Assembly: GCA_955652705.1 (NCBI GenBank)
Contig: CATPBK010000044.1
Span: 1-64,000 of the forward strand
Length of the DNA stretch: 64,000 nt
Reading direction: 5' to 3'
From: Candidatus Dormiibacterota bacterium
GTDB taxonomy: Bacteria > Chloroflexota > Dormibacteria > Dormibacterales > Dormibacteraceae
Each line of letters starts with the position of its first letter. Positions within the stretch are counted from its first letter, which is position 1. Of the stretch, positions 49,102 to 64,000 are shown piece after piece. Made by a program: the position numbers and the translations under genes. The notes below the pieces were generated by a model, which saw only the letters and a list, made by a program, of their open reading frames with translations, did no database searches and had not been told where the DNA came from.

Positions 49102-49126
49102 CTCCACGAACAATTGTTCGTATGGT
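49098..49126 (+). promoter_or_regulatory. recA promoter with LexA (SOS) box in the spacer
   Basis: TTGACT (49098-49103), 17-nt spacer, TATGGT (49121-49126). The perfect palindrome CGAACAATTGTTCG (49107-49120) fills the spacer, so LexA binding would occlude RNA polymerase. The box is the Gram-positive type CGAAC-N4-GTTCG. The mRNA leader is about 75 nt. Confidence 0.88.
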
Positions 49127-49207
49127 TGGCCGACTCTGCTTTACAGACCCGCTTGATCTTGCACCCGCACCGGTACAAGACTTGCTGCACTTAAATTCTT
49201 GGAGAGG

Positions 49208-50290
49208 ATGACGAAGTTGGACAACAAAGAAAAAGCGCTCAGCACCGCGGTCGCGCAGATCAAGAAGGAGCACGGAGAAGGCGCGATCATGTTTCTCGGA
49301 GAGGCGGCGAAGCAGCGTGAGGTCCTGGTCATACCGACCGGAGCCCTTCCGCTCGACTTGGCGCTCGGAGTGGGGGGGATCCCGCGAGGCAGGGTCGTGG
49401 AGATCTACGGCCCCGAGTCGGCGGGCAAGACCACGCTTGCGCTGCACGTGATCGCCGAGGCGCAAAAGCTCGGTGGGGTGGCGGCTTTCGTCGACGCCGA
49501 GCACGCCCTCGATCCCATCTACGCGGCCCGCATCGGGGTCAAGATCGACGAGCTCCTGATCAGCCAGCCCGACACTGGAGAGCAGGCGCTCGAGATCGTC
49601 GAGGTGCTGGTCCGGAGCAACGCCGTCGACGTGGTCGTCATCGACTCGGTCGCGGCCCTGGTCCCCAAGGCCGAGATCGAGGGTGACATGGGCGACTCGC
49701 ACATGGGACTCCAGGCTCGCCTGATGTCGCAGGCAATGCGCAAGCTGACCGCCTTCATCTCCAAGTCCAACTGCTCAGTGATCTTCCTGAACCAGCTCCG
49801 TGAGAAGGTCGGGATCATGTTCGGCAACCCGGAGACGCAGCCGGGCGGCCGGGCGCTCAAGTTCTACTCATCCATCCGCCTGGACATCCGCAAGGTCGAG
49901 GTGATCAAGTCCGGGCTCGACTCGATCGGCGCGCGCGTCAAGGTGAAGGTCGTCAAGAACAAGGTCGCGCCGCCGTTCCGCTCGGCCGAGTTCGACATCC
50001 TGGCCGACGGCATCTCCCGCGAGGGCGCCATCATCGACGCTGCGATCGAGCACGGGATCGTCGACAAGAGCGGCTCCTGGCTGTCCTACGGCGACGCCCG
50101 GCTGGGCCAAGGCCGCGAGGGCGTGCGCAACTACCTGCGCGAGAACCCGTCGCTGGCGGCCGAAATCGAAGGCAAGGTGCGGGCCAAGGTGGCCGATGCG
50201 GCCGCCCCGCTCGCGAGCGGATCCAATGGAGCCCGGCCTGCCGCGGCCCCGAGCGACCAGGAGACAGAAGGAGCCCCGGTCGAGCTCTGA
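49208..50290 (+). CDS. recA: Recombinase RecA
   Basis: Forms filaments on single-stranded DNA for strand exchange and LexA self-cleavage. Walker [25 protein letters not shown]-type [65 protein letters not shown]-terminal domain to about 325, then an Ala/Pro/Ser tail. ATG 49208 abuts GGAGAGG too closely; TTG at 49217 (9 nt after [22 protein letters not shown]) is probably the true start and matches the family N-terminus. Confidence 0.97.
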
Positions 50291-61334: not shown

Positions 61335-62632
61335 CGACGGCCCCCCGTCTGATCTCGACGGAGACCCGCCCGGAGCGGGCTTACCTGATCGGCGTACTCC
61401 TGCCTGGAATGCCGCAGGCAGGCCTCGAGGGCCAGCTGAACGAGCTCCGTGACCTGACGCGCACCGCCGGCGGCGAGGTGGTCGGCTTCGACATCCAGCG
61501 CCGCCCAGAGATCGACCCTGCGCTTTACGTCGGCCGGGGCAAAGTCGACGAGCTGCGTGAGCTTCACCTCGGCGGCGAGTACGACCTCTTAATCTGCAAT
61601 GAGGATCTGAGCCCGCGCCAGCAGCGCAACCTGGAGCGGGAGCTCAAGACCCGAGTGGTCGACCGGACCGAGCTGATTCTCGACATCTTCGCCCAGCAGG
61701 CCAGGACCCGCGAAGGCCGGCTGCAGGTCGAGACGGCTCAGCTCCATCACCTGCTCCCGCGCCTGATCGGCGCCTGGGACTACCACCGGCAGGGGGGCGG
61801 GATCGGCACCCGGGGCGGTCCTGGTGAGCAGCAGATCGAGGTCGAGCGCCGCCGCATTCGCCGCCGGCTGAAGGACCTCGAGAAGGAGATCGCCGATGTC
61901 CATCGCCAGCGCCAGCAGCAGCGCGCGGGACGCCACCGGTCGGAGCTGCAGACGGTGGCCATCGTCGGCTATACGAACGCCGGCAAGTCAACGTTGCTCA
62001 ACGGGCTCACCAACGCCGGCGTGCGCGCCGAGAACCGCCTCTTCGCAACCCTGGACCCGACCACCCGCCGCTTACGGCTCCCTTCCGGGCGCGAGCTCCT
62101 GCTGACCGACACCGTCGGCTTCATCCAGAAGCTCCCAACCGACGTGGTGGCGGCGTTCAGGGCGACCCTCGAGGAGGTCACCTACGCTGACGTGGTGCTC
62201 CAGGTCCTTGACCTCGGCGACCCGGCCGCCGAGCAGCAGGCGGCGACTGTGGAACAGGTCCTCGGCCAGCTCGAGGCGGCCGACAAGCCGCGCGTCGTGG
62301 CTCTCAACAAGGTCGACCTGCTGGGCCCGGCAAGCCGCCGCCGAGCGATTCAGGCGATCCGTGATCGCTACCCAGCGGCGGTTCCGATCTCGGCTCGCGC
62401 GCGCACTGGGGAGTCAGACCTCCTGGCGGCCCTGGACCAGGTCAGCCGCCAGGACGTCGTGGAGGTCCACCTCCTCGTGCCCTACGGCCGGGAGCAGGTC
62501 CTCAACGACCTTCGCCAGGTGGGCGGCCTGGAGCGGACCGAGTACGTCGCCGCGGGCACGAAAGCGTGGGGCTGGGTGCCGCGACGCGCACTCCATCGGT
62601 TCGAGGGGTACTCGGTTCAGCCGCCCGCTTAG
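61331..62632 (+). CDS. hflX: GTPase HflX
   Basis: Ribosome-associated GTPase that splits stalled or heat-damaged 70S. N-terminal domain with RAYLIGVLLP, YVGRGKVDELRELH, NEDLSPRQQRNLE and DRTELILDIFAQQARTREG; a coiled segment at about 165-200; G domain GYTNAGKSTLLN, DTVGFIQKLP, NKVD. The frame is open far upstream, but only CTG 61331 (CTGA with the dapL stop; MTTAPRLISTETRPERAYL) starts near the family N-terminus; the nearest upstream canonical codon lies about 110 codons inside dapL. About 433 residues. Confidence 0.95.
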   Translation: MTTAPRLISTETRPERAYLIGVLLPGMPQAGLEGQLNELRDLTRTAGGEVVGFDIQRRPEIDPALYVGRGKVDELRELHLGGEYDLLICNEDLSPRQQRNLERELKTRVVDRTELILDIFAQQARTREGRLQVETAQLHHLLPRLIGAWDYHRQGGGIGTRGGPGEQQIEVERRRIRRRLKDLEKEIADVHRQRQQQRAGRHRSELQTVAIVGYTNAGKSTLLNGLTNAGVRAENRLFATLDPTTRRLRLPSGRELLLTDTVGFIQKLPTDVVAAFRATLEEVTYADVVLQVLDLGDPAAEQQAATVEQVLGQLEAADKPRVVALNKVDLLGPASRRRAIQAIRDRYPAAVPISARARTGESDLLAALDQVSRQDVVEVHLLVPYGREQVLNDLRQVGGLERTEYVAAGTKAWGWVPRRALHRFEGYSVQPPA

Positions 62633-63246
62633 TTAAGGATCCGGATGACGGCCTTGACGTCGCCGACGAGGGAGACGTGGTCGCTGATGATGGGCTCGTA
62701 GGCCGGGTTCTCGGCCACCAGCTCAACCTTTCCGTTCACGCGGTGGAGTCGCTTGACGGTGGCCTCGTCCTGGTCGACGAGGGCCACGACGATGGTCCCG
62801 TTGGGTGCCTCCTGCCGTGGACGGACCAGCACGAGATCGCCGTCCAGGATGCCGGCGTTGATCATGGAATCGCCGCGGACTTTGACCAGGAACCAGCCCT
62901 CCTGCGCGATGTCAGGCGAGAGGAGGAGGTGGTCCTCGATGTTCTGCTCCGCGAGGATGGGTTGGCCGGCAGCTACATGGCCGAGCAGCGGCACCGCGAC
63001 GGCATTGCGCCGCTTCTCATCGATCGGCTGGTCCTGGACCAGCTGGACCGTACGCGACTTGCTGGCGTCGCGGTGGATGAGGCCTTTGCGCTCGAGCTGG
63101 TTCAGGTGGTTGTGCACCGTCGAGCTGGAGGAAAGGCCGACTGCCTCGCCGATCTCGCGAACGCTCGGCGGGTAGTTGCGAACCTTGGTCACATGGCGGA
63201 TGTAGTCAAGGATCTTGCCCTGGCGTTCGCTCAAATCTTCGGTCAT
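62629..63246 (-). CDS. lexA: SOS repressor LexA
   Basis: DNA-binding repressor that self-cleaves when RecA is activated. 205 residues: winged helix (LSERQGKILDYIRHVTKVRNYPPSVREIG, split as PPSVREIGEAVGLSSSSTVH), cleavage site around LLGHVAAGQPILAEQ (Ala-Gly), catalytic Ser in VRGDSMINAGI and Lys in DQDEATVKRLHR. ATG (63244-63246) with AAAGGAG 5-6 nt upstream. Convergent with hflX (stops overlap). Its promoter carries its own SOS box. Confidence 0.96.
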   Translation of the reverse strand: MTEDLSERQGKILDYIRHVTKVRNYPPSVREIGEAVGLSSSSTVHNHLNQLERKGLIHRDASKSRTVQLVQDQPIDEKRRNAVAVPLLGHVAAGQPILAEQNIEDHLLLSPDIAQEGWFLVKVRGDSMINAGILDGDLVLVRPRQEAPNGTIVVALVDQDEATVKRLHRVNGKVELVAENPAYEPIISDHVSLVGDVKAVIRILN

Positions 63247-63285
63247 CTGCACTCCTTTCAGAGAGGTCCCCGCTGCCGAAAATCG

Positions 63286-63325
63286 ATGCTAGCACCTCCC
63301 GACCGGGAGTGCAAACTTTTGTTCG
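63286..63325 (-). promoter_or_regulatory. lexA promoter with SOS box
   Basis: On the - strand: TTGCAC, 17-nt spacer, TAGCAT (63286-63291 on +). The box CGAACAAAAGTTTG (63312-63325) overlaps the -35, one mismatch from CGAAC-N4-GTTCG. Predicts LexA autoregulation. Confidence 0.8.
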
Positions 63326-63374
63326 GGGACCGTGAATTACGACGAGGTGGGGTGGGGAATTCTCCTCGTCAGGT

Positions 63375-63391
63375 GTCAGGCTCGGCCTGAC
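63375..63391 (+). other. Hairpin in the lexA/LysM intergenic region
   Basis: GTCAGGC-TCG-GCCTGAC, a perfect 7-bp stem, followed on the + strand by CGCTTCTTTT. A partner half (GTCAGG...CCTG) recurs at 63419-63434. Could be a weak terminator or part of a small RNA; no gene lies here. Confidence 0.4.
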
Positions 63392-63443
63392 CGCTTCTTT
63401 TCGTGTGAAGGGTACCCCGTCAGGTCGGCGCCTGTGACACTGT

Positions 63444-63489
63444 TTGACAGCGAACGCTTGTTCGCTCTATCCTTTCGAACAAATGTACG
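63444..63489 (+). promoter_or_regulatory. SOS-controlled promoter of the LysM gene with two LexA boxes
   Basis: TTGACA (63444-63449), 18-nt spacer, TATCCT (63468-63473). Perfect box CGAACGCTTGTTCG (63451-63464) fills the spacer; a second, CGAACAAATGTACG (63476-63489, one mismatch), covers the ATG at 63483. The -10 to ATG distance (9 nt) suggests a leaderless mRNA. Confidence 0.88.
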
Positions 63490-63800
63490 CTGCGCGCGAT
63501 GTGTGGTCCTACCGGCGCCTCCGGCCTCGCAGCCCGTGGCCGGGCCGGCTTGCCCGCACGGGCCTTGTGTTTGGCGCCGCGGTGGTGCTCTCGCTGGGCC
63601 TGGCCCGGGCGGTTGATGGGCAGGCGCCGGCGTCCTACGAGGCGGTCACCGTGCAGCCGGGAGACACGCTCTGGTCCATCGCCGCAGCGCGCTACCCAGG
63701 CTCGGACGTGCGTGCAAAGATCTGGGATATCGAGCAGGCGAACCACCTCCAGTCGCCGCTGATCGAGGTGGGGCAGACCCTCGAGATTCCGAGCCGCTGA
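63483..63800 (+). CDS. SOS-induced LysM protein, YneA-like cell-division inhibitor candidate
   Basis: 105 residues: basic N-terminus (YRRLRPRSPWPGRLAR), one transmembrane helix (about 30-48, TGLVFGAAVVLSLGLARAV), then a single LysM domain (EAVTVQPGDTLWSIAAARYP to VGQTLEIPS). This is the architecture of YneA/DivS-type SOS division suppressors, which are also encoded divergently from lexA in Bacillus and Actinobacteria. Two LexA boxes in front support that role. Sequence similarity to YneA itself cannot be judged by eye; a peptidoglycan-binding role is certain only at the domain level. Confidence 0.8.
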   Translation: MYAARDVWSYRRLRPRSPWPGRLARTGLVFGAAVVLSLGLARAVDGQAPASYEAVTVQPGDTLWSIAAARYPGSDVRAKIWDIEQANHLQSPLIEVGQTLEIPSR

Positions 63801-63822: not shown

Positions 63823-64000
63823 GTGCGGGTTGAGCTGGTGACGCGCAAGGGCTGCCACCTCTGCGACGAAGCCCAGGCCACCCTGGAGGCCGCCGGGGTC
63901 GAGGTCGTGCCGCTCGACGTCGATGCCGATGCAGAGCTGCTCCGGCTCTACGACTTCAGGGTCCCGGTCGTCCTCCGCCACGGAAGAGTCGCCGCCGAGG
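63823..64000 (+). CDS. Glutaredoxin/thioredoxin-like protein (3' end outside window)
   Basis: First 59 residues of a DUF836/glutaredoxin-like protein: VELVTRKGCHLCDEAQATLE with a C-x2-C pair (CHLC), then a beta-alpha unit and LYDFRVPVVLRHGR containing the cis-Pro of the thioredoxin fold (RVPVV). GTG start lies 10 nt after TAGGCT (63807-63812), so it may be leaderless. Cut by the window edge; substrate unknown. Confidence 0.75.
   Translation, partial: MRVELVTRKGCHLCDEAQATLEAAGVEVVPLDVDADAELLRLYDFRVPVVLRHGRVAAE

Follow-up and report, generated by a model that had tools for sequence, protein, structure and literature searches.

A three-box LexA control region common to lexA and a divergent YneA-like LysM gene in Dormibacteria

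Genes next to lexA that encode a transmembrane (TM) segment, or a TM segment with LysM, are a hallmark of the SOS division inhibitors of Gram-positive bacteria (PMC6851548). In YneA of Bacillus subtilis the TM segment localises to TM7 of FtsW, the contacting residues being K5, E6, F10, V11 and F14 (PMC13396833). The block that YneA imposes on septal synthesis depends on peptidoglycan binding through its LysM domain (D46, T47, I81) (PMC13396833). ChiZ (Rv2719c) of Mycobacterium tuberculosis is an SOS-controlled TM-plus-LysM protein encoded beside lexA, and SosA of Staphylococcus aureus and DivS of Corynebacterium glutamicum are small single-TM SOS division inhibitors with the same gene neighbour (PMC6851548). 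In Caulobacter, SidA is an SOS-induced small membrane protein that inhibits division at the septal synthase (PMC13396833).

The window, ie the 64,000-nt stretch of DNA analysed here, was described in a first-pass annotation as carrying a LysM gene divergent from lexA, and the pair was likened to the YneA arrangement. The likeness holds. A predicted single TM segment is followed by a C-terminal LysM domain, the gene adjoins lexA in divergent orientation under LexA boxes, and the same synteny is found for the characterised inhibitors (PMC6851548). As in YneA of B. subtilis and other Firmicutes (NF010723), the protein has about 100 amino acids, one N-terminal hydrophobic helix, and the conserved D and T of the LysM ligand loop. 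It differs from YneA in a longer, basic N-terminal tail and in a score under the equivalog cut-off (45.3 against 60 bits), and its gene is probably leaderless, with the start codon in the proximal LexA box, whereas in several Firmicutes loci (L057, L065) that box lies just 5' of the Shine-Dalgarno (SD) sequence and start codon. ChiZ and SidA are likened to it by description; the hydrolase activity reported for ChiZ has no visible counterpart domain in the 105-residue window protein, and no LysM domain is described for SidA. SosA and DivS lack the LysM domain that the window protein has. We regard the protein as YneA-like and of a known type, the unusual aspects being the apparent overlap of operator and start codon and the uncharacterised lineage. 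Taken as a whole, the locus is read here as a two-gene SOS control point with a YneA-like division inhibitor, at a probability of about three in four.

The control region and its conservation

Boxes were scored with the pattern CGAACN4GTTCG, and the features of the locus are given in Table 1. The common SOS region of three boxes that had been annotated is present, with one perfect and two one-mismatch sites, and their placement is also as annotated, one on the lexA -35 element and two at the LysM gene, one of which covers its ATG. The reversed pattern, used as a control, gave 147 sites at one mismatch or fewer in the 2.79-Mb MAG, and from that density the Poisson chance of three or more boxes in the stretch 63312-63489 is about 1e-7. 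The probable start of lexA, as read from the sequence, is the ATG at 63246, with the SD sequence AAAGGAG at 63258-63252.

Table 1. Positions of the features of the lexA/LysM locus and of the recA control in the window
Feature	Position	Strand	Description
recA box	49107..49120	.	perfect LexA box 5' of recA; internal control for LexA motif identity
recA	49199-50290	+	PF00154, 435 bits
lexA	62629..63252	-	TIGR00498, 204.1 bits (cut-off 110.95); LexA_DNA_bind and Peptidase_S24
lexA promoter	63286..63314	-	by sequence; -35 TTGCAC 63314-63309, 17-bp spacer, -10 TAGCAT 63291-63286
LexA box 1	63312-63325	.	CAAACTTTTGTTCG, 1 mismatch; overlaps lexA -35
LysM-gene promoter	63444..63473	+	by sequence; -35 TTGACA 63444-63449, 18-bp spacer, -10 TATCCT 63468-63473
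LexA box 2	63451-63464	.	CGAACGCTTGTTCG, perfect; within the -35/-10 spacer of the LysM gene
LexA box 3	63476-63489	.	CGAACAAATGTACG = CGAACAA-ATG-TAC-G, 1 mismatch; spans LysM-gene ATG at 63483
YneA-like LysM gene	63483..63800	+	105 aa; basic N-terminal tail, one hydrophobic helix, LysM; Pfam LysM 46.5 bits
Hydrophobic helix	63546..63617	+	aa ~22-45; Kyte-Doolittle maximum 1.83; H22-45 in AlphaFold model
LysM domain	63648..63791	+	C-terminal; beta-alpha-alpha-beta; Pfam and AlphaFold, pLDDT about 88
Glutaredoxin-like gene	63823..64000	+	3' of LysM gene; extends beyond the window end

The identity of the motif is indicated by the genes that it precedes. Besides recA, perfect boxes in the same genome lie 5' of a gene for a RecA-like protein (possibly ImuA), a DEAD-box helicase gene and a DUF222 gene, and one-mismatch boxes precede genes for a Y-family polymerase and an SbcD-like nuclease. 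The pattern thus appears to be the LexA motif of this genome, an operator common to recA and other SOS genes; the regulon annotation covers selected stretches of the genome. Nine perfect boxes were found, where about five would be expected with the control count divided equally among the 31 variants, and several of the nine may be due to chance. One perfect box (L009:2670-2683, G000:C93:5169) precedes an mraZ-like gene and genes of the division cluster at a distance of about 385 bp; it too may be a chance site and was left out of the regulon count, and it would be of interest if conserved.

Conservation of the lexA/LysM pair, proposed in the first-pass annotation as a check, is borne out. A search with LexA, which in the window is 96% identical to that of VBGR01000033 ('Chloroflexi bacterium CF_83') and has many Dormibacteria among its next-best matches, gave 80 lexA loci, and almost all of those from Dormibacteria have a short TM-LysM ORF divergent from lexA together with three boxes. 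When 12 relatives were aligned, the boxes, the -35 and -10 elements and ATGTACG made up nearly all the invariant columns, at a mean column identity of 43%; the columns around the lexA -10 (TGCTAGCA) were invariant or nearly so. Box 1 was present in all the family-f1 Dormibacteria loci examined, f1 being the family to which the window belongs. Among 35 f1 promoters, box 2 lies 30-35 nt 5' of the ATG, with no mismatch in 27 and one in eight. It is abutted by TTGAC in 33, and in 33 a TANNNT -10 element ends 9-13 nt before the ATG of the LysM gene. The exact two-box pattern is present in 51 of 110 genomes of the class (37/42 in f1 and 14/18 in f4), and the reversed-pattern control gave no hits. 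Because of this conservation across relatives, the three boxes are real beyond doubt.

The LysM protein and its probable role

The start of the LysM gene was placed at the ATG at 63483, where homology and conservation begin; an upstream TTG at 63444 was rejected on those grounds. The gene is evidently under purifying selection (dN 0.024, dS 0.55 and dN/dS about 0.04 in comparison with L014). In the AlphaFold model of the product the mean pLDDT is 71 and the N-terminal tail is disordered. Across 27 homologues G60, D61, W64, I66 and N87 of the LysM domain are invariant, and T62 is kept in at least 90% of the homologue alignment; D61 and T62 match the D and T with which YneA binds peptidoglycan, the equivalent of I81 being judged by its position in the LysM tail only. 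At the exit from the helix, A44-x-G46, the glycine is invariant and the alanine is found in at least 90% of the 27. Firmicutes homologues have a shorter and less basic N-terminal tail, and the region is too divergent for the FtsW-contact residues of YneA to be aligned.

Among NCBIfam families, YneA gave the best match to each of the 27 Dormibacteria homologues tested. The score of the window protein itself (E 6.4e-12) does not reach the curated value, and the protein is therefore not filed as a YneA equivalog; the proteins encoded next to lexA in Firmicutes score 55-71 bits against the same family.

Inhibition of division is the leading hypothesis for the LysM protein, and we hold it to be likely. 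At box 1 LexA would repress its own gene; at box 2, within the promoter spacer, and at box 3, over the ATG and the probable transcription start, it would repress the divergent, probably leaderless YneA-like gene. RecA-triggered cleavage of LexA would derepress both genes. The helix would then insert the short protein into the membrane and leave the LysM domain on the outer side. If the protein acts as YneA does in B. subtilis, its place would be at the septal peptidoglycan synthase (FtsW/FtsI) with LysM on the nascent glycan, and it would delay septation until the DNA is repaired. Septal FtsW is the most likely target; two SEDS proteins (FtsW/RodA) are encoded in the genome.

The hydrophobic helix could be a TM anchor or a cleavable signal peptide. 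As the A44-x-G46 sequence is compatible with cleavage by signal peptidase, the protein may be secreted in its mature form; alternatively, processing at this site could end the activity. This bears on the strongest alternative, an SOS-induced LysM protein, secreted or bound to peptidoglycan, which would serve to protect or remodel the wall, or to activate a hydrolase, and would not inhibit division, its helix being a cleaved signal peptide. The conserved A-x-G immediately after the helix would suit such a protein, LysM is a generic glycan binder, ChiZ of M. tuberculosis has been reported to have hydrolase activity (as cited by PMC6851548), and in family f3 the GDT motif of LysM reads GQ(S/T). 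Yet every homologue has YneA as its best-matching family, the plan of about 100 residues with a TM segment and LysM beside lexA is that of the characterised division inhibitors, and the LysM protein has no catalytic domain, which together make the wall-binding or secreted role unlikely. The change of the GDT motif is to GQS in the f3 loci L171, L172, L183, L195, L196, L199 and L200, and to GQ(S/T) when f3 is taken with some f2 members; glycan or ligand binding may be altered in those homologues.

Probable operators of the LysM gene and the start codon in box 3

In Dormibacteria the simplest reading of the ATG inside the LexA box is that it acts as a leaderless start. No SD-like motif was found 5' of the LysM gene in any of the 35 f1 promoters, and given also the short distance from the -10 element to the ATG, the gene is probably leaderless. 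The f1 operator has the form CGAACNN-ATG-TAC-G. Its non-coding half sits precisely at -7 and reads CGAAC or CAAAC in each of the 35 promoters, and codon 2 is TAC in all 35 sequences; box 3 always has one mismatch. In family f4, box 3 is mostly perfect (CGAACNC/A-ATG-TTC-G) and codon 2 is Phe. It is rather probable, at lower confidence than for the role in division, that a single 14-bp sequence serves as operator, transcription start region and leaderless translation start of an SOS division inhibitor, constraining the protein to begin with Met-Tyr, or with Met-Phe in the case of a perfect box, and that it is conserved throughout the class even after the gene has left lexA. Such an overlap would offer a clear, testable case of an operator over a leaderless gene start.

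Box 3 might instead be no operator, ATGTACG being kept only because it encodes Met-Tyr and the left half being a motif of the transcription start. The fixed mismatch, GTACG for GTTCG in 35/35 f1 sequences, speaks for this. We nevertheless think it improbable, as the left half CGAAC is non-coding and yet fixed at -7, f4 has a perfect box at the same position (ATGTTCG) with codon 2 changed to Phe, and f2 keeps its proximal box despite a different coding start.

The start of the f2 genes has a further peculiarity. In several genomes (L168, L174, L175, L178, L180, L182, L164, L167) a conserved ORF of nine codons (MEHPFGAGT-like) begins at the ATG next to the proximal LexA box, and its stop overlaps the LysM start (ATGA/GTGA), resembling a translationally coupled leader peptide; in L162 the MEHPFGAGT-like stretch and the LysM gene form one continuous reading frame. 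Start codons at LexA boxes are also seen at other genes. The DUF222 gene of the window's genome likewise has its ATG inside a perfect box, CGAACATGCGTTCG (L010:1129-1142, G000:C137). In genus g2 (L108, L109, L113, L114, L117, L121) a DEAD-box helicase gene shows this promoter layout too, with two LexA boxes and the ATG at the second; the helicase gene in the window's genome (L006) also has an SOS box.

The gene served by boxes 2 and 3 can be told from loci at which the LysM gene has moved or been lost. In family f2 the gene is convergent with lexA, 0.8-3.2 kb away, and its promoter still has one or more boxes of its own, and in f3 it lies 0.2-6.4 kb from lexA, with a box retained at the start in most loci. 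In genus g3, the LysM gene has disappeared from L047/L219 together with both its boxes, and what remains is lexA, the box on the lexA side and the glutaredoxin-like gene downstream; in L220 the LysM copy is broken, with a disrupted frame, and the boxes have decayed. Boxes 2 and 3 move with the LysM gene and vanish with it, and hence belong to it; these movements and losses separate the assignments of operators to genes, and control of the LysM gene by LexA is strongly supported by the sequence comparisons. That the boxes serve lexA autoregulation only, with the LysM gene an unrelated neighbour, would suit the intergenic region that both genes have in common in this window, but is very improbable and was rejected on the f2 and f3 relocations, which boxes 2 and 3 accompany, on the loss in g3, where L047 has box 1 and neither of the others, and on the position of box 2 within the LysM-gene promoter.

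The glutaredoxin-like gene directly follows the LysM gene in 33 of the 35 f1 loci examined and is absent from its vicinity in f2-f4. It is probably an accessory cotranscript of the LysM gene; a role as functional partner of the LysM protein was rejected because the two are not neighbours in f2-f4.

Distribution in the class and the phylum

The LysM profile matches 97 of 110 Dormibacteria genomes, and LexA is likewise matched in 97 of the 110. The same profile was run against 400 Chloroflexota genomes, of which about 340 were sampled outside the class; no full short LysM homologue was found in that search outside Dormibacteria, the only matches outside the class being three weak ones of 38-43 bits, all in long ORFs. 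The YneA proteins encoded next to lexA in Firmicutes are scored at 42-60 bits by this profile, so most such proteins in other Chloroflexota should have been detected.

The first-pass annotation had also called the lineage uncharacterised for such an inhibitor, and the literature, as far as it was covered (coverage is incomplete), held nothing linking lexA with Dormibacter. The locus would thus extend the lexA-linked, LysM-type SOS checkpoint proteins, so far of Firmicutes and Actinobacteria, to a soil class in which seemingly no SOS response has been described, and the Dormibacteria homologues supply about 100 natural variants.

Neither of two genus-g25 genomes (G022, G023) has a full LexA match or a LysM homologue, and the two parts of the checkpoint may have been lost together. 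Although the sequence JAJPKS010000179.1 (L047) bears the title 'Bacillota bacterium Centralia_MAG_97', it is assigned to Dormibacteria by its lexA (70% identity) and by synteny; the contig recurs as G086 within the family of the window.
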